64,000 nucleotides of DNA, taken from positions 715,246 to 779,245 of the forward strand of contig NZ_LN881723.1 in the NCBI RefSeq assembly GCF_001457415.1, given 5' to 3'. Under the pieces are notes generated by a model. That model had not been told where the DNA came from. It did not search any database and worked only from the letters and a program-made list of their open reading frames with translations. Positions 1 through 60,244 of the stretch are shown here, one piece after another. The stretch comes from Gorillibacterium timonense (GTDB lineage: Bacteria; Bacillota; Bacilli; Paenibacillales; NBRC-103111). A program made the position numbers and the translations under genes. Each line of letters starts with the position of its first letter. Positions within the stretch are counted from its first letter, which is position 1.

Positions 1-229
1 ATCCCTCATTATATCAGATTCCTATCTTGATGGACATGCCCAATCCCTTCAGTGCGAATACCGCATCCTTCTGATCGTAAAGGATCATGCGAACAACAAA
101 CAGCCGCTCCATGAAGGAGCAGCTGCGTGTCAGTGATCATCTGCAAATCGTTACGCGATTTTTATTCATCCTGTCTCTCCAGAACTGCGGGTCAGGCCTC
201 ATTAACTAGGTGATTTGCGAGCTTTCCCT
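1..229. other. Window start, no confident gene
   Basis: No recognisable gene. On the minus strand a short frame runs from an ATG at position 110 to a TGA near position 9 (about 33 codons, C-terminus GLGMSIKIGI), and an overlapping second frame is also open. I recognise neither. Either could be the tail of a decayed gene or chance. The sequence could equally be the downstream region of bofC, which ends at 230 reading in this direction. Confidence 0.3.
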
Positions 230-1039
230 TCACGAAGAAGTGGGTAAACCCGCTGCCATAAAGTCGCTGAACGTTGAAAGCACGCTGTTGAACTCCTCCA
301 GATCCTTGACCCGAATCCCCGCGTTCAACTGATTCCATGCATCCGGAGGGAGGCTGCTCTTCAAATCTTCCACATTCAATTGGAAAAAAGTTCGAATCAC
401 CCGCTGCTCTTCCGGTATGCCGTCGAACAGACTGAGATTGCCGTTCGCATCCACGCCGAAAAAGGCATTTTGTTTGCAGCCAGGAGATAAATCTTCGATG
501 GACTCGGTAAAAATGACATGGCCATCAGGCGCTTGCGTCGGCTTAAGTCCGGGATGGCTGGAGGCGTATTTCATCAGCTCTTGATTCGTCATCTCGCCAA
601 GCGCCTCCACCTCTTCGCCGCAGACATATATCCGCTTGAGGTAGACCTGACGAATCTCTGCCCCTTGGGCAATGGATTCAATAGCCTCATCCTCCGTTGT
701 GGGTTGGCTTGCAGGGGATGGCAATGGTTTGGCTAATCTCTTATCAAGGGCCAGCACAGCGTGGATCGTTCTCCGATTAGGCTCTGATACGACCGCGCCG
801 GTTGTACAGAAGCCTGCTGTTTCGTTTGCGGCGACGGTACAGAGACCTGTTGAACAAGTCATGCTGGTTTTACAGAGACCTGTTGCTTCCATCGTTGCTG
901 TGATTGTCTGCGCCTCCGCCGAAACGGGACCGGGACTGACGGACAGGCCGATCAACAAATAAAAGACGGCAAGTGAAATCCAACGCTTGCGGGAACGCAG
1001 CTGCTTCTTCAGTTTCTTCATCAGGCTGGACATCCGCAT
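230..1039 (-). CDS. bofC: BofC, forespore regulator of the sigma-K checkpoint
   Basis: Predicted secreted 269-residue protein. A basic N-terminus is followed by a hydrophobic signal segment (about 20-42). Residues about 127-260 match the BofC family: the stretch from VYLKRIYVCGEE through DLSPGC, NAFFGVDANG and VIRTFFQLNVEDL aligns by eye with B. subtilis BofC. In that organism BofC is made in the forespore and restrains SpoIVB, the signalling protease that triggers SpoIVFB-dependent activation of pro-sigma-K; spoIVFA/FB lie in this same window. It is about 90 residues longer than the B. subtilis protein because of an inserted segment (about 45-120) with four cysteines in imperfect TGLC/AGFC repeats. 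The ATG at 1039 is chosen because AAGGGG lies 6 nt upstream. That site is inside a perfect inverted repeat, described separately. Confidence 0.85.
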   Translation of the reverse strand: MRMSSLMKKLKKQLRSRKRWISLAVFYLLIGLSVSPGPVSAEAQTITATMEATGLCKTSMTCSTGLCTVAANETAGFCTTGAVVSEPNRRTIHAVLALDKRLAKPLPSPASQPTTEDEAIESIAQGAEIRQVYLKRIYVCGEEVEALGEMTNQELMKYASSHPGLKPTQAPDGHVIFTESIEDLSPGCKQNAFFGVDANGNLSLFDGIPEEQRVIRTFFQLNVEDLKSSLPPDAWNQLNAGIRVKDLEEFNSVLSTFSDFMAAGLPTSS

Positions 1040-1045
1040 GGCGAT

Positions 1046-1091
1046 TCCCCTTCTTCCGGTGTTTTCTTTAGCTTTTCCCGGAAGAAGGGGA
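1046..1091 (-). promoter_or_regulatory. Inverted repeat sequestering the bofC ribosome binding site
   Basis: A perfect 14-bp inverted repeat (arms 1046-1059 and 1078-1091, 18-nt loop) lies between safA and bofC. Read on the minus strand the distal arm holds the bofC Shine-Dalgarno AAGAAGGGGA, six bases before the ATG. No T-run follows, so it is not a standard terminator. A transcript carrying both arms should mask the start site. Confidence 0.6.
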
Positions 1092-1127
1092 GCTTATTCG
1101 GTTAATGTGGCACCCGAACGCCTTTCT

Positions 1128-3290
1128 TTAGCGGTATTGGTTGATCCAGGGATTATTGATTCGCTCCCCCTTCGGGGTCGGCTTTTTGCTGCGCCGTGCG
1201 AGGGTGTGCAGAGTCGCTTTGGCCGATGATTTCCTTTTCTTCGCAGCCGCACTCTTCACGGGAATCTCTTCTTCATCTGTGAACACTTCGGCTTGTGGGG
1301 GTAAGGCTGCTGCGGGAACGGCTACATCATCCCGATATTCCGGTTGAAATCCGTATAACCCCGTCGGATAAGGAATCGGACCTGAGGCTGGATTATAAAC
1401 ACCGGGAACTCCTGATGGGAACAAACCTCCTCCATAAGCTCCCCCGTCTGCCCAAGGAGCCACTTCGGGGTATCGAGCGGGATAGCCAGTCGGCATACCA
1501 CCCCATCCCGTTTGAGGGTAGCTGTACATGGGGTCGATCGCTCCGGGTTTTCCTGTGGGATATGGAGTGGCTGAGTACGGTGAAAATGGAGCATTCTCGG
1601 TACCCGAGTATGGGGAGATCATGGCGTTCTCCGCGCCCCCCGTGGAATACGGGGAGAACGCGGTGTTCTCAGTGCCCGTCGAATACGGAGAGAACCCGGT
1701 GTTCTCGGTGCCCGTCGAGTACGGGGAGAACGCAGTGTTCTCGGTGCCCGTCGAATACGGAGAGAACCCGGTGTTCTCGGTGCCCGTCGAGTACGGGGAG
1801 AACGCAATGTTCTCGGTGCCCGTCGAATACGGAGAGAACCCGGTGTTCTCAGTACCCGTCGAGTACGGGGAGAACGCGGTGTTCTCAGTACCCGTCGAGT
1901 ACGGGGAGAACGCAGTGTTCTCGGTGCCCCCCATGGAATATGGGGAGATCATGGCGTTCTCCGTACCAGCCACCGCTTGCGGCGAAATCGGTGCATTTCC
2001 TCCATCTGTCCACGGGTAGTACCCATAGGGAGATACTGCACTGCCTTGAGGATAGCCATAAGGAGAATAGTTGCTGTCGGCGGAGTGGCATCCGCAGGTT
2101 GACTGGGTTCCCACATAAGGAGAACTTGCAGCTGGATAAGTCCCGTACCCTTGTGCGGGGGTTTGATCGGCAGAATAGAGCGGTTGCTGCCCATAAGAGT
2201 AAGGCAAGAAGCCCGCATTGTCCTTGGATGCCGACGGTCCCGCTGCCAATGGATTTACGTTGTTGCTGGCGAGCGGCGAATAGCCAGGCCAGTTGGTGTT
2301 TCCCGCGCTAACGGGAGCTGCCGCGTTCCCTTGGTTCGAGAACGCCTCCACCGCCGGAACTTGATATTGCATAAACAAATGCTCGGAGGTGTATGGATTA
2401 CCTTCAGGTGAACTCGGCGAAACAGCAGTCGGAGTAAAATAGGGTGAAGTTTGTGGATAATCAGGAATATCTGAGATCGTAGGGATCTGTGGATAGTTGG
2501 GCTTCCCGGACGGTTTGACTGAGCTTGGAGACACGGACGGCTGCATAGGCTTGCTCGGTTGTATCGCCTCTGCCTGAGGCTTCGCCTGTTCGATCGGTTT
2601 CACCTGCGGCTTTTCATTCTCAACAGGTTTCGCCTTTTCAGCCGGTTTTACATTTTCCACCGGACTAACTTCAGCAGGCTTTTCTTTTTCGACTGGTTTC
2701 ACATTCTCCACAGGCTTCTCCACCACCGGAGCCGTATTCGCCTTCGGTGTTTCTACCACCGGCGCCGTATTCGCCTTCGGCGTTTCCGCCACTGGCGCCG
2801 TATTCGCCTTCGGCGTCTGGGCAACCGGTGCTGTGCTCGCCTTCGGCGTCTGAGCAACCGGCGCTGTATTTGCCTTCGGTGCTTGAGCAACCGGAGCCGT
2901 ATTCGCCTTCGGGTTTGCGGTTGCGGCTGTCGTGTATCCCATCGAATGGCTTCCGCTCACACCCGTTTGTTTCGGGATGTACACCACTTGATTCGTCATC
3001 AAAATATTGGGGTTGGTGATGTGAGGATTAGCGTCGATCAACGTTTTGAGAGGAACCCCCCACGCCTTCGACAGCTTCCACATCGTATCTCCCTGCTTTA
3101 CCGTATGAGCGTGCATGCCTTCCGGCGTGACCGGCACCGATCCCGATGGAATCTTAATCTTCATGCCAATCTCGAGCTTATCGGGATCGGCCAACCCGGG
3201 ATTCGCGGCGATGAGCTTGTCGAGGTTCACGTTGTATTTTTTGGCCAGCTCAAACAGCGTATCCCCGGCTTTCACCACATGAATTTTCAA
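1128..3290 (-). CDS. safA: SafA-like spore coat morphogenetic protein with two LysM domains and repeat arrays
   Basis: 720 residues. Two LysM domains stand at the N-terminus (about 3-48 and 61-106; VKAGDTLFELAKKYNV and VKQGDTMWKLSKAWGV). Next come six 11-residue PKANTAPVA repeats (127-192), a Pro/Lys/Glu-rich stretch, a Pro/Tyr/Ser-rich low-complexity body containing TENTxFSPYSTG repeats, and a basic tail. In B. subtilis SafA is a mother-cell protein that binds cortex peptidoglycan through LysM and organises the inner coat. That protein is about half this size and has one LysM. The position beside pheA and the coat-like composition support the assignment, while the repetitive body has no obvious homology. 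The ATG at 3290 has AGGAGGGA upstream. Confidence 0.75.
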   Translation of the reverse strand: MKIHVVKAGDTLFELAKKYNVNLDKLIAANPGLADPDKLEIGMKIKIPSGSVPVTPEGMHAHTVKQGDTMWKLSKAWGVPLKTLIDANPHITNPNILMTNQVVYIPKQTGVSGSHSMGYTTAATANPKANTAPVAQAPKANTAPVAQTPKASTAPVAQTPKANTAPVAETPKANTAPVVETPKANTAPVVEKPVENVKPVEKEKPAEVSPVENVKPAEKAKPVENEKPQVKPIEQAKPQAEAIQPSKPMQPSVSPSSVKPSGKPNYPQIPTISDIPDYPQTSPYFTPTAVSPSSPEGNPYTSEHLFMQYQVPAVEAFSNQGNAAAPVSAGNTNWPGYSPLASNNVNPLAAGPSASKDNAGFLPYSYGQQPLYSADQTPAQGYGTYPAASSPYVGTQSTCGCHSADSNYSPYGYPQGSAVSPYGYYPWTDGGNAPISPQAVAGTENAMISPYSMGGTENTAFSPYSTGTENTAFSPYSTGTENTGFSPYSTGTENIAFSPYSTGTENTGFSPYSTGTENTAFSPYSTGTENTGFSPYSTGTENTAFSPYSTGGAENAMISPYSGTENAPFSPYSATPYPTGKPGAIDPMYSYPQTGWGGMPTGYPARYPEVAPWADGGAYGGGLFPSGVPGVYNPASGPIPYPTGLYGFQPEYRDDVAVPAAALPPQAEVFTDEEEIPVKSAAAKKRKSSAKATLHTLARRSKKPTPKGERINNPWINQYR
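1570..1969 (-). repeat. 36-bp coding tandem array (TENTxFSPYSTG) in safA
   Basis: About eleven copies of a 36-bp unit within safA, encoding the 12-residue motif TENTxFSPYSTG. The central eight are nearly identical and alternate A/G at one position, which suggests higher-order duplication of a 72-bp pair. Flanking copies are diverged (TENAMISPYS, TENAPFSPYSA). Confidence 0.9.
2715..2912 (-). repeat. 33-bp coding tandem array (PKANTAPVAQT) in safA
   Basis: Six consecutive 33-bp units encoding PKANTAPVA(Q/E)(T/A), residues 127-192 of the SafA-like protein. The array links the LysM domains to the low-complexity body and is probably an extended linker. Confidence 0.9.
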
Positions 3291-3392
3291 TACAGTTCCC
3301 TCCTTCGGTTATGGAACGTCGGTCAGCATTCAGGCGGAGGCCGGCGCGTTCGGTCCAGCTTGCTTACGGGTTCCTGCCCAGATTTTCATTAC

Positions 3393-3419
3393 AGTCTATG
3401 CACGGAACTGGGCATTTGA
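3393..3419 (-). promoter_or_regulatory. Possible sigma-E promoter of safA
   Basis: On the minus strand TCAAAT (3414-3419) is followed after 13 nt by CATAGACT (3393-3400), close to the sigma-E -10 consensus CATACAHT. The transcript would begin about 95 nt before safA. Sigma-E control of safA is known in B. subtilis; the match here is imperfect. Confidence 0.35.
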
Positions 3420-3749
3420 CATCCCGCTGCGAAAAAAACATTCCTTTTCTGCCGGAATTTCGCCGAGCTTGGCCGAATTTATTCAAGCTGCGAAGCGTTC
3501 ATCCAAATGAATTCTCCAAAAAAGGTGCAATGAATCGCATCCACACAGCCTCAATTTGGTGTATTTTAAACATTTTCTAAAATTTATGGTAACCGCTCCA
3601 TTCATAAGTGCGTCTATTCATATAGTAAGTAATTGAGGCGGAATATGGGTAAGAGGTTTGTACTGCGCTTCCACCCAACCGAAAAACGAAATGCTTTCAG
3701 CTTTTGGATTATTTTATCAAATGCCATGATAGGGAGGACGATGTTCCCG

Positions 3750-4304
3750 ATGAAGAAAGCGGCTTGTTTGATTGTACTGGTAAGTGCGGTTTTGATAGTT
3801 GCCGCTTGCAGAAATTCAAATTCAGGTAATGAAAAGAACATCAACCAATTAACCCAAGAAATCGAACGGTTGAAAACCGAGAATTCACGTCTAACCGAGG
3901 AAATCGAGAAGGGTAAAGAATCCGATGAGAAAGTAAGGCCCGCAGCGGAGAAATGGGCGTCGTTAGATGATAGATACAGGATGTTAACGTATAGTTACAA
4001 GGCGCTGCTTAAAGCGGTCAAATACCACCCGGAAATCCTTCCCGCCCGGGTGGATTATGACGACCCGTTGAAGAAGCCCATTTTTGATGCTGTACAGGAT
4101 ATTACTAAACTCGTTCCCTTGAAGGAAAATCAATTTGCTGTACTTGCCTATGCCCATTTCGAACAAGAAACGACAGCATACATAGAAGTGATCTATATCG
4201 AAACAAATGGAGAAGGAGACGAAGAAAACGAGGAAATCCGAACGGGATCAAATCTAACGATTTATCTAGACAAGCAAAATGGCAAATGGGTCTTAAAAAA
4301 ATGA
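3750..4304 (+). CDS. Putative lipoprotein with N-terminal coiled coil
   Basis: 184 residues of unknown function. A lipoprotein signal (MKKAACLIVLVSAVLIVAAC) puts the lipidated Cys at residue 20. A heptad-rich segment follows (about 28-58, QLTQEIERLKTENSRLTEEI), predicted coiled coil, and then a globular C-terminal part of about 100 residues with no motif I recognise. It is likely anchored on the outer face of the membrane. The ATG at 3750 gives a standard lipoprotein leader with AGGGAGG 12 nt upstream. An in-frame ATG at 3741 is only 3 nt from that site. It sits alone on the plus strand between safA and the pheA operon, and a two-way terminator follows. Confidence 0.7.
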   Translation: MKKAACLIVLVSAVLIVAACRNSNSGNEKNINQLTQEIERLKTENSRLTEEIEKGKESDEKVRPAAEKWASLDDRYRMLTYSYKALLKAVKYHPEILPARVDYDDPLKKPIFDAVQDITKLVPLKENQFAVLAYAHFEQETTAYIEVIYIETNGEGDEENEEIRTGSNLTIYLDKQNGKWVLKK

Positions 4305-4320
4305 ACCTGCAAAGAGAACA

Positions 4321-4355
4321 AAAAACTGACGCCGGTAAGTCCGACATCAGTTTTT
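4321..4355. terminator. Bidirectional terminator between lipoprotein gene and pheA
   Basis: 15-bp hairpin (AAAAACTGACGCCGG paired with CCGACATCAGTTTTT, two wobble pairs, 5-nt loop) with A-tract and T-tract on either side. It serves the convergent lipoprotein gene and the pheA operon. Confidence 0.8.
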
Positions 4356-4454
4356 AGGTTGTAGCAGCTCACGCTAAAATCGGGTATGCCCCGTTGAGGA
4401 ACGGTATACATGGACATGGTGTTCATCAAACCGCTTGGTCGGCATTCGAATCCA

Positions 4455-5378
4455 TTACCGAACGACTTCGTGTTGAGAAAACTCATAAGGATAGGTCGGG
4501 TACGAGCCCATCACGCGCACCTGGCAGCGCAACGCTTCGATCTCGGCAAGCGCCGCCTGCAGAAGCACGGAATCGAGCGATTCCTCCACATCGATGTAAA
4601 AGTAATAGGTGCCCAGCTTCAGCTTGGTCGGCCGCGATTCGATCTTGGTCATGTTGATTCGCCGCCAAGCGAAGGTGGCAAGCACTTGATGGAGAGCGCC
4701 GGGAAAATCCTCCGGCAGAGTCACAATAATCGTCGTCTTGTGAAGCTCGCTCTCCGCCAGCTCCGGCCGCTGTTCACCCACGAGTACAAAACGTGTATAG
4801 TTGTTCTGGTGATCCGTGATATTCGGAGCGAGAACCTCCAGCCCATAGAGCTTGGCTGCAAGCTGGGTGCCGATAGCAGCTACGGCTTCGTCCGCTCCCG
4901 CACTCACCAATCGGACCCCCTCCGCGGTACTGGCCACATGCTCCAGCTCCACTTCCGGCAACTCCGCTCCCAGAAACTTGCGGCATTGAGCGATCGCCAC
5001 CGGAATCGAAATGACTTTGCGGACATGATCGTAAGGTTTTTCCCCATTGTCTTCAGCCGCCTGGGACGAATTCTCCTCTTGCCAGCCAGAAGGCCGTCTT
5101 CCGATCAGGTTTTGAATGGAAGGATAAACCCACTCCGCCTGGATCGGCAATTGATTTTCATGAATCAGATAGTCCATATGGAGACTCACGGAGCCGTCGA
5201 TCGCATTCTCGATCGGAATGACGCTCCAGTCGGTTTCTCCGTTAGCCGTCGCCCGAAAGACCTCGGCAATTTGCTTGTAGGGAATAAATTCATACTCCCC
5301 TCCCGCATCCCGGAAAAAATACCGGGCCGATTCGTCGGTTACGGTGCCATACGGCCCTAAAACGGCAATGCGCTTCAT
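4455..5378 (-). CDS. pheA: Prephenate dehydratase
   Basis: Converts prephenate to phenylpyruvate in phenylalanine synthesis (cytoplasmic). 307 residues. The N-terminal dehydratase domain (about 1-200) carries LGPYGTVTDES, the IPIENAIDGSV strand and the catalytic TRF of NYTRFVLVG. The C-terminal ACT domain (about 213-290) carries GALHQVLATFAWRRINMTKIESRP, the regulatory site for phenylalanine. A hydrophilic insert of about 22 residues near 95-117 (after LIGRRPSG) lengthens the usual 270-290 residue enzyme. It is the last gene of the pheB-hom-thrB-pheA operon, 6 bp after thrB. AAGGAG precedes the ATG. Confidence 0.95.
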   Translation of the reverse strand: MKRIAVLGPYGTVTDESARYFFRDAGGEYEFIPYKQIAEVFRATANGETDWSVIPIENAIDGSVSLHMDYLIHENQLPIQAEWVYPSIQNLIGRRPSGWQEENSSQAAEDNGEKPYDHVRKVISIPVAIAQCRKFLGAELPEVELEHVASTAEGVRLVSAGADEAVAAIGTQLAAKLYGLEVLAPNITDHQNNYTRFVLVGEQRPELAESELHKTTIIVTLPEDFPGALHQVLATFAWRRINMTKIESRPTKLKLGTYYFYIDVEESLDSVLLQAALAEIEALRCQVRVMGSYPTYPYEFSQHEVVR

Positions 5379-5384
5379 TCCCTG

Positions 5385-6383
5385 TTACTCCTTCCGAACG
5401 GTTTCCATAAATGTACGATGATTACCCGCGAGAGTCAACACACGAACCCCTTCGCGGCTCGGCTTCAAGCGCCGGATGGAAACGTCGATTCCATGTTCGG
5501 CCATCGTGTTCTTAAGGAAATCGGTCAATTCCTCCCCCTGCTCTTCGCGGGCATCTGCAAGCGCGATGAGCGTCGGCCCCGCTCCCGATAACGCGGCTCC
5601 AAGCGCTCCGTGGCTGGCGGCTCCGGCTAGCACCTCCGGCATCCCAGGAATCAGCCGCGCCCGGTACGGCTGGTGCAGCGCATCCTGCATGGCGTCCGCG
5701 ATCAGCTCGTAGCGCCCGGAGCAAAAAGCCGCCACCAGCAGGTTAGAGTGGCCAATGTTGAACACCGCGTCCTTCAGCGGCAAGCTCTGCGGCAGCACTT
5801 CACGCGCCTTGCGGGTGGACAGCTCAAAGTCGGGAATGGCAACGAACGACTCCAGGTGCTCGAGCGGTTGTACACCGATGTGCCGCGCCTCGGTTCCGTC
5901 CCAATAGGCGACAACAATGCCGCCGAAGAGAGAAGCCCCGACGTTATCCGGATGATGCTCCAGGGTGCATGCCAAGCGGAACAGCTCTTCCACAGGCAGC
6001 GGTTCAGGCAGCAGTGCGTTTGCAGCCGCGAGAGCGCCTACGATCGCAGCCGCGCTGCTGCCAAGTCCCCGCGTCAGCGGGATTTCGCTGTAGTTGGAGA
6101 TTTCCAGCTCCGGTGCCGCCAGGCCAGCTCGCTCGAACACCTTCACTGCGACTTCATATAGCAGATTGTCTTTCCCGTCCGGCAGCCCTTCCGTCTGCTC
6201 CCCATGAAGATGAACAACCGTCTTCTCGGCGATGCTCATCGCGATCCAGGTGTATAGCTCAAGCGCCATGCCGAGTGAATCAAAGCCAGGACCCAGGTTC
6301 GCGGTGCTCGCCGGCACCTTGACGACAACTGTTGTTTCGGGTAGCGTTCCCGCGTTCTTGTCAATCCTATCGTGTGTTGTCAT
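5385..6383 (-). CDS. thrB: Homoserine kinase
   Basis: Phosphorylates L-homoserine with ATP, committing it to threonine. 332 residues. GHMP-kinase features: the N-terminal substrate segment PASTANLGPGFDSLGMAL, the ATP-binding loop PLTRGLGSSAAAIVGA, and a C-terminal GAALSGAGPTLIAL. The start at 6383 (MTTHDR) is preferred because AAGGGG, overlapping the hom stop, lies at good distance. An ATG 19 codons upstream would extend 44 bp into hom without a better ribosome site. Tight coupling to hom implies one transcript. Confidence 0.95.
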   Translation of the reverse strand: MTTHDRIDKNAGTLPETTVVVKVPASTANLGPGFDSLGMALELYTWIAMSIAEKTVVHLHGEQTEGLPDGKDNLLYEVAVKVFERAGLAAPELEISNYSEIPLTRGLGSSAAAIVGALAAANALLPEPLPVEELFRLACTLEHHPDNVGASLFGGIVVAYWDGTEARHIGVQPLEHLESFVAIPDFELSTRKAREVLPQSLPLKDAVFNIGHSNLLVAAFCSGRYELIADAMQDALHQPYRARLIPGMPEVLAGAASHGALGAALSGAGPTLIALADAREEQGEELTDFLKNTMAEHGIDVSIRRLKPSREGVRVLTLAGNHRTFMETVRKE

Positions 6384-14607: not shown

Positions 14608-14712
14608 CTCCTCATGTCTAAGACTCGCCTAATGGACAGGTGGCGGATTGCGGTTTCCCGCGTGCCGCGCTTAAACCCGTTTCGTGCGGTTGGGGCATGT
14701 TTTGCAACACAC
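14608..14712 (-). ncRNA. rplU leader, candidate L21 autoregulatory element
   Basis: About 105-nt transcribed leader between the promoter and rplU, GC-rich with several self-complementary blocks (AACCGCACGAAACGGGTT, GCGGGAAACCGC) and the conserved-looking end AGACATGAGGAGGTGCAACA. Firmicutes often carry an L21-binding leader here. The assignment rests on position and general look, not on a covariance match. Confidence 0.45.
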
Positions 14713-39309: not shown

Positions 39310-39588
39310 AAATAAAAAAGCGCCTCATCCTCGTGAAAAGGACGAAGCGCTTTACGCTCTCCGTGGTACCACCTTCATTCCGCATCCGCCTGTTCAGGCA
39401 AAGACGCGGCGCTCAAAGCAGATAACGGCTGCCGCCGGCGGTTTGGTGATCCTCCCCGCAGCTCCCGGGCGACCTTCGGCGGCAACTCCCTGCGGACCTC
39501 CCAGCCGATGCCGGTCCGCTCTCTGAAGGGCTTTACTCCTGCCTACTCTTCCCGTTCCATGCAGATTTCATGATAAGGTCTATCTGAC
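39310..39588 (-). ncRNA. T-box riboswitch controlling valS
   Basis: Leader of about 280 nt. On the minus strand the antiterminator T-box GAAGGTGGTACCACGG (39361-39376) is followed by a terminator hairpin (AGCGCTTCGTCC with GGATGAGGCGCT, then TTTTTT). Stem I elements AAGAGTA and CAGAGAGC are present upstream, and GAAGGTCGC offers a GUC (Val) specifier. Uncharged tRNA-Val would stabilise the antiterminator and raise valS expression. Confidence 0.9.
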
Positions 39589-39897: not shown

Positions 39898-39911
39898 CAT
39901 ACCAAACTGAA

Positions 39912-40100
39912 TCCTGTGGGAACAGGTGCTCCGGTACGTTTAACCGGAGCTTAAAAGGGAAGCCGGTGAAAAACCGGCGCGGTCCCGCCACTGTGAACGG
40001 AAGAGTCCAGGCAACACCGCCACTGGTCGCAAGACTGGGAAGGCCGCCGGATGGGCGCTAGATTCCGTGAGCCAGGAGACCTGCCTGTTCTGACAACACT
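39912..40100 (+). ncRNA. Cobalamin riboswitch upstream of metE
   Basis: Typical elements in order: P2-like pair (GGTGCTCCGG and CCGGAGC), AAGGGAAGCCGGTG, GCGGTCCCGCCACTGTGA and the B12 box GAGCCAGGAGACCTGCC at 40069-40085. It binds adenosyl- or methylcobalamin. The hairpin terminator at 40163 lies in the same leader, so bound B12 should shut off metE. That fits a cell that uses B12-independent methionine synthase only when B12 is scarce. Confidence 0.95.
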
Positions 40101-40162
40101 GTTTTTACCTACGGAAGATAGGGAGGTGTTAGAGTGGCTGCCTGCGTGAAGACCATACGGAG

Positions 40163-60132: not shown

Positions 60133-60180
60133 AGGGAACGAATCAAGCTCGGACCATTTGTCCGGCTTGATTCGTTCCCT
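60133..60180 (+). terminator. Terminator 1 after the permease gene
   Basis: 16-bp stem AGGGAACGAATCAAGC with GCTTGATTCGTTCCCT enclosing a smaller GGACC/TCC pairing; ATCTTTCG follows. Confidence 0.75.
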
Positions 60181-60199: not shown

Positions 60200-60244
60200 A
60201 GGAGCGGTACCCAAGCAGGCGATAACCTGCTTGGTACCGCTCCT
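60200..60244. terminator. Terminator 2 between the permease gene and hemA
   Basis: 19-bp near-perfect hairpin (AGGAGCGGTACC-C-AAGCAGG with CCTGCTTGGTACCGCTCCT, 6-nt loop) between convergent genes. Confidence 0.75.

Follow-up and report, generated by a model that had tools for sequence, protein, structure and literature searches.

How can a forespore gene stand directly behind a mother-cell gene without its product being made in the wrong cell? The compartment specificity of sporulation is usually attributed to sigma factors alone, though forespore and mother-cell genes can stand in tandem. The question is raised by one end of a 64,000-nucleotide stretch of the Gorillibacterium timonense genome, referred to here as the window, where two co-directional genes follow each other on the minus strand. 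The upstream gene (positions 1128 to 3290) encodes a safA-like protein with LysM domains, a repeat-rich tail and the C-terminal residues PWINQYR, and its product scores 95.9 bits against the NCBIfam SafA/ExsA family model TIGR02899 (spore_safA; cut-off, 67.85). The downstream gene (positions 230 to 1039, with its ATG at 1039) encodes 269 amino acids, of which residues 182 to 258 match the Pfam domain BofC_C (PF08955; E = 9.9e-26). These family matches uphold the names safA and bofC that a preliminary description of this DNA had given to the two genes. In the sigma-K checkpoint, BofC reportedly dampens signalling by SpoIVB (Wakeley 2000, cited in PMC12251134), so its synthesis in the wrong cell could matter, or it may also be harmless there. 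No terminator was found in the window between the safA stop codon and the bofC promoter. Mother-cell expression of safA has been established in Bacillus subtilis only (PMC517825).

Both reading frames also show some peculiarities of their own. Positions 1680 to 1960 (minus strand) of the safA-like gene encode successive 12-residue repeats that are nearly identical to one another (TGTENTxFSPYS); the tail repeats differ in relatives (e.g., loci L007, L014, and L088), as if they formed a fast-evolving repeat array. The N-terminal part of the window BofC (760 to 930, minus strand) is longer than in most relatives and carries the cysteine-containing near-repeats TGLCKTS, STGLCTV, and TAGFCTTG between the signal anchor and the domain.

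Between the two genes lies a perfect inverted repeat, with arms of 14 nucleotides at 1046 to 1059 and 1078 to 1091 that are 100% complementary and enclose an 18-nucleotide loop (1060 to 1077). The preliminary description had reported this repeat, had placed the bofC Shine-Dalgarno (SD) sequence in one of its arms and had counted 6 nucleotides from that arm to the start codon; all of this proved accurate on inspection. The downstream arm (1046 to 1059) reads CCGGAAGAAGGGGA on the minus strand and includes the GGGG at 1050 to 1047 that serves as the SD sequence, and 6 nucleotides separate it from the bofC ATG. The upstream, anti-SD arm (1078 to 1091, minus strand) begins 36 nucleotides past the stop codon of the safA-like gene, lies within the spacer of the bofC promoter and closes with the GG that belongs to the −10 region. 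As had also been noted, no T-run follows either arm, and the repeat therefore lacks the stem-then-T-run layout of an intrinsic terminator.

Repeats of this kind are rare by chance. In a window of equal size and composition, 0.011 perfect repeats with arms of at least 14 nucleotides and loops of 3 to 40 would be expected, and the window holds four with loops of up to 40, the one at bofC included; the loops of the other three measure 5, 5, and 16 nucleotides. When the 46 SD-bearing starts of long open reading frames in the window were compared, bofC was the only one with a helix of at least 10 pairs over its SD sequence (14 pairs, followed by 8 at the next start; median, 4). A dispersed repeat was considered and rejected, because the 131-bp region around the repeat is single copy in the genome and the arm-pair patterns found genome-wide hardly exceed the reversed control (19 versus 17; also 2 versus 2). 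Rfam covariance models gave no match up to an E value of 1 in window positions 1 to 5500, and hence no known cis-regulatory RNA there. Elsewhere in the window, matches at the Rfam gathering score comprise a cobalamin riboswitch (39907 to 40102, plus strand), a T-box leader (39335 to 39568, minus strand), and a ribosomal protein L21 leader (14611 to 14701, minus strand). Two successive perfect inverted repeats of 16 and 12 bp with loops of 16 and 21 nucleotides were also seen, at 60133 to 60180 and 60200 to 60244, without an Rfam match.

The position of the repeat relative to the promoter is central to its interpretation. In most loci of the family, bofC is preceded by GTATAN-N14-GGNAAANNTA, usually about 25 to 50 nucleotides before a start codon with a AGAAGGGGAT-like SD sequence. 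This pattern resembles the B. subtilis sigma-F/sigma-G consensus; sigma-F and sigma-G are indistinguishable from these sequences. In the window, the putative forespore-type promoter (1069 to 1099, minus strand) was aligned by spacing to the relatives and consists of GAATAA, a spacer, and GGGAAAAGCTA ending at 1069. This copy is weaker than the family pattern, with GAATA and a spacer of 14 or 15 nucleotides depending on the GG chosen (15 by the automatic pattern). The weak CGAATA...AAAGCTA pair to which the preliminary description had drawn attention is this family-wide promoter in a locally diverged form, and the start that it predicts falls inside the loop, as had been suggested. The loop contains most of the −10 element (GAAAAGCTA, 1077 to 1069), and transcription, which we infer to begin 6 to 7 nucleotides after the −10 element, should start at about 1062 to 1063. 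Since the upstream arm is the promoter spacer, a transcript started in the loop would lack that arm. An exact-pattern scan of the organism's own genome for forespore promoters returned 3 matches versus 2 in the control and was uninformative, since the additional spacer base kept it from matching the bofC promoter of the window itself. The sigma-F/sigma-G assignment also draws on the promoter description in the available part of PMC5942855.

RNA folding predictions differ sharply between the two possible transcripts. The RNA of positions 1020 to 1110 (minus strand) has a predicted folding energy of −32.5 kcal/mol (z = −4.28), and none of 200 shuffled sequences was equally stable. In the read-through RNA, the predicted probability that the SD sequence is unpaired is at most 0.0002 in three fold windows. 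It is 0.19 to 0.36 in short RNAs starting at 1060 to 1066, so the short bofC RNA should, according to the model, expose its SD sequence far more than the read-through RNA does, yet only in part. Shuffling the left arm alone raised the mean unpairing of the SD sequence to 0.10.

We propose, with a probability of roughly three in four, that the bofC inverted repeat acts as a translation switch whose state depends on the position of the promoter and which silences read-through mRNA. A polymerase running on from the mother-cell gene safA would copy both arms, which would fold in the read-through RNA as a hairpin of at least 14 pairs; the bofC SD sequence would then be buried, and this mRNA would therefore go untranslated. 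A polymerase carrying a forespore sigma factor would instead start in the loop, since the upstream arm forms the spacer of its promoter, and the resulting mRNA, free of the upstream arm, would have a far less occluded SD sequence. Synthesis of BofC would then be limited to the cell in which the bofC promoter is active. This agrees with the reading in the preliminary description, which had suggested that the arrangement could confine BofC synthesis to the forespore. Because the SD sequence would be hidden only in the read-through mRNA, bofC may adjoin a mother-cell gene without a terminator.

To place the locus among its relatives, 104 genomes of the family were compared, of which 100 contain a bofC homologue; the window's genus is represented by a single genome. 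The 5′ regions of all 100 were taken, own locus included (L002 to L101). Three loci without a usable promoter or start (L021, L082, and L100) were dropped, leaving 97, and L043, with its long leader, was excluded from the fold statistics, leaving 96, of which nine have a safA stop codon that could not be resolved. For 18 loci in which the automatic pattern had failed or had misplaced them, promoters or starts were set by visual inspection, which could favour the hairpin reading. The loci were grouped by the gap between the safA stop codon and the bofC promoter, with class limits (2 to 31, then at least 60 nucleotides) chosen after the gaps were known. The promoter lies 2 to 31 nucleotides behind the safA stop codon in 19 of the 97 loci, from 11 genera and including the window (close class). 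The gap is 60 to 332 nucleotides in 20 loci (intermediate class), among which L044 is counted with a doubtful safA stop, and it exceeds 600 nucleotides in 48 (far class), usually with a minus-strand gene in between, as exemplified by a SigW-like ECF sigma factor in genus g16 (L038) and signal peptidase I in genus g18 (L029).

The preliminary description had staked its reading on the presence of the repeat among relatives that share the gene order. A repeat-like hairpin between spacer and SD sequence, differing in sequence, is indeed kept in 19/19 close loci of this order, with most of the SD sequence paired in each fold. Compared with each locus's own shuffled spacers, these hairpins have a mean z of −3.47, with a P value of at most 0.05 in 16 of the 19, and the mean unpairing of the SD sequence is 0.08 in the long RNA versus 0.44 in the short RNA. 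The corresponding values are −0.53 and 2/20 in the intermediate class, −1.03 and 13/48 in the far class, and −0.88 and 3/9 where the safA stop codon is unresolved. At the level of genera, the close class is separated from the intermediate and far classes together both by z (Mann-Whitney, P = 1.5e-4) and by SD unpairing (P = 0.0029). Some members of the close class are weak: the P value exceeds 0.05 in L017, L041, and L101, and SD unpairing reaches 0.26 to 0.44 in L005, L019, and L041. Where the safA stop codon is only a few nucleotides away (L036 and L006), the terminating ribosome could overlap the arm. Overall, many relatives that share the safA-bofC order seem to carry the same putative safeguard. 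A separate search for related loci gave no relative among genome contigs and one distant match among plasmids.

The distribution of terminators is complementary to that of the arm. Of the 20 intermediate loci, 17 have a terminator-like hairpin in the stretch that separates safA from the bofC promoter, two of these being weak (L026 and L055). The number in the close class is 0/19, a count that is partly forced, since there is little room for a terminator there. The intermediate locus L045, scored as terminator negative, has a 10-pair stem upstream of the promoter without a T-run.

One genus departs from this pattern. In g18, 12 of 17 far-class loci have a significant hairpin between spacer and SD sequence despite a divergent gene just upstream (signal peptidase I in L029, the one checked). 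These loci (L029, L088, L098, and others) carry CGATCCCC or a wobble-compatible variant, complementary to the SD sequence, in the bofC promoter spacer. The genus thus keeps the arm with no obvious upstream transcript; safA read-through antisense to the upstream gene, a relic of an earlier arrangement, or an additional role of the arm may account for this.

We also looked beyond the family. bofC is present in 204 of 217 genomes of the order, which were sampled evenly from a larger group. From other families, 41 loci were chosen, non-randomly, among the matches listed; nine had no promoter call, and 32 were used. The 13 loci with a co-directional gene within 40 nucleotides and no terminator have a median z of −3.10 and a mean SD unpairing of 0.09, with a P value of at most 0.05 in nine, compared with a median z of −1.57 and a mean SD unpairing of 0.36 in the remaining 19. 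Spacer pairing at this level of significance also occurs in eight of these 19 non-close loci, mostly without burial of the SD sequence. In five of the 13 close loci, the upstream gene is other than safA (a serpin in L142, the one checked; the other four end alike), and the hairpin therefore tracks a close upstream gene rather than safA itself. Loci L134, L138, and L142 and their relatives (family f10, genus g31) have ATCCCTTCA/TGAAGGGAT arms around the promoter, with bofC behind another co-directional gene, and apparently represent a separate context for the same device. In L116, safA lies at 79 nucleotides, no terminator was found, and the SD sequence is free. The organism's own sigG gene (L105, G000:C6:218548-219312), behind sigE, shows the same layout as bofC: its SD sequence is predicted to pair with the promoter spacer and −10 region in the long RNA, with an unpairing of 0.01 compared with 0.32 in the short RNA, and the spacer-shuffle P value of 0.088 is not significant.

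These distributions bear on what else the stem might do. It could serve the safA message, as a 3′-end stabiliser, an RNA-processing site, or a weak factor-dependent terminator, with the cover over the SD sequence as a by-product. The stem does stand just past the safA stop codon, where relatives with longer gaps have terminators, and a strong stem there would also slow 3′ exonucleases. However, the missing T-run in the window speaks against this, as does the layout of the close class, where the SD sequence by the start codon falls in the downstream arm and the promoter spacer holds the upstream one. Neither position would be needed by a pure 3′-end element; we consider such a role unlikely. 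Alternatively, the forespore transcript may start further upstream than we place it, and the hairpin would then also tune its translation. The partial opening of the SD sequence predicted for the short RNA fits this idea, and in B. subtilis the transcript from the sigG promoter itself carries a small leader hairpin of five pairs at the SD sequence, according to the available part of PMC5942855. Tuning of the forespore transcript is nevertheless quite improbable, given a conserved promoter that puts the start in the loop, past the upstream arm, and an arm that depends on the upstream gene context.

Spacers match their own leaders, as a comparison of genera shows. The spacer arms differ by genus; the window, L109, and L134, for instance, carry CCCCTTCTTCC, CCCTTCTTTAT, and ATCCCTTCA, respectively. 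When spacers were swapped among 11 genera, the own combinations had a mean energy of −20.7 kcal/mol versus −15.5 kcal/mol, and 1 of 10,000 derangements reached the weakest observed set. With 17 genera, the energies were −20.64 versus −14.68 kcal/mol, and the longest Watson-Crick run averaged 6.94 for own and 5.37 for swapped spacers; 0 of 20,000 derangements were as good by either measure. Shuffling the spacers with their composition kept reduced the mean longest run from 6.94 to 4.77 (standard deviation, 0.22). RNAalifold found no common stem in the 19-sequence alignment of the close class (3 pairs only), because the pairing register shifts between genera; the case therefore rests on the per-sequence and swap tests rather than on column covariation. 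The spacer-shuffle, swap, and context tests all point to pairing that is conserved by selection, in no common register.

The same data weigh on a reading at the DNA level, in which the repeat is an operator and a dimeric repressor or activator bound to arms around the −10 region controls the forespore promoter. The symmetry around the −10 region is perfect, and regulators that act in the forespore are known, RsfA and SpoVT among them. Yet a protein operator is not expected where the arms vary widely between genera while each matches its own leader, since a protein site would not need that complementarity, and the arms track gene context, not the promoter; we regard this reading as very improbable, slightly more so than tuning of the forespore transcript. 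Least credible is a chance or neutral leftover in which C-rich spacers pair by accident with G-rich SD sequences. In its favour is the pairing retained in g18 and in some loci of f10 where no gene lies close upstream; against it are the very low number of such repeats expected by chance in a window of this size, the loss of much pairing upon composition-kept shuffling, and the outcome of the 20,000 swaps.

The translation switch proposed for bofC may be part of a wider rule. It is possible, if somewhat doubtful, that spore formers use two interchangeable insulators between mother cell and forespore: a terminator if there is room, and otherwise an anti-SD arm in the promoter spacer when a forespore promoter abuts the upstream stop codon. 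bofC and sigG would then exemplify a general principle that evolved again and again, with cell-type identity secured at the level of translation as well as by sigma factors. The alternation of spacer anti-SD arms with terminators across genera makes both the leakage problem and its solution testable.

Hairpins that hide a ribosome binding site in one transcript are known from several systems. In the protection of IS10-type transposase genes, a transcript from outside sequesters the ribosome binding site. The proposed arrangement at bofC shares this sequestration in an external transcript but, unlike IS10, a mobile element, concerns a developmental gene. In the leaders of the T4 genes e, soc, 49, and I-TevI, the SD sequence is hidden in a helix of the early long transcripts, and for gene e and I-TevI the late transcripts start where the structure cannot form, with an experimentally determined 100-fold effect on lysozyme in the case of gene e (PMC3014915 and PMC2988022, in their available parts). 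As in these leaders, the long bofC transcript is predicted to hide its SD sequence in a helix; the phage leaders separate early from late times, whereas the switch predicted at bofC would separate two cell types. A parallel from sporulation is B. subtilis sigG (spoIIIG), behind spoIIGA-sigE, where a hairpin of 20 or more pairs has been suggested to keep the read-through mRNA from being translated; a transcript initiated at the sigma-F/sigma-G promoter of sigG itself is unable to form it (PMC5942855, available part, which cites Masuda 1988 and Sun 1991 as the original hairpin papers). Like sigG as described there, bofC would be a forespore gene behind a co-directional sporulation gene, with a hairpin that would be absent from the transcript of its own promoter. 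The gene pair here is safA-bofC, and unlike sigG, bofC encodes a sigma-K-checkpoint protein rather than a sigma factor; across many genera, moreover, the occurrence of its arm goes with whether a gene lies close upstream and whether a terminator stands in between. We found no report of such a hairpin at bofC in the literature searched, including the available parts of PMC12251134 and PMC3533761. Several features common to the sigG-type and T4 gene e-type hairpins are seen at this locus: a stable helix predicted to bury the SD sequence in the long transcript, a 5′ strand of that helix inside the promoter, given the start placed in the loop, and a co-directional upstream gene, safA, putatively of the other compartment, with no terminator found after it. 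That bofC joins, as a new case, the read-through-silencing SD hairpins known from B. subtilis sigG and T4 gene e is comparatively well supported.
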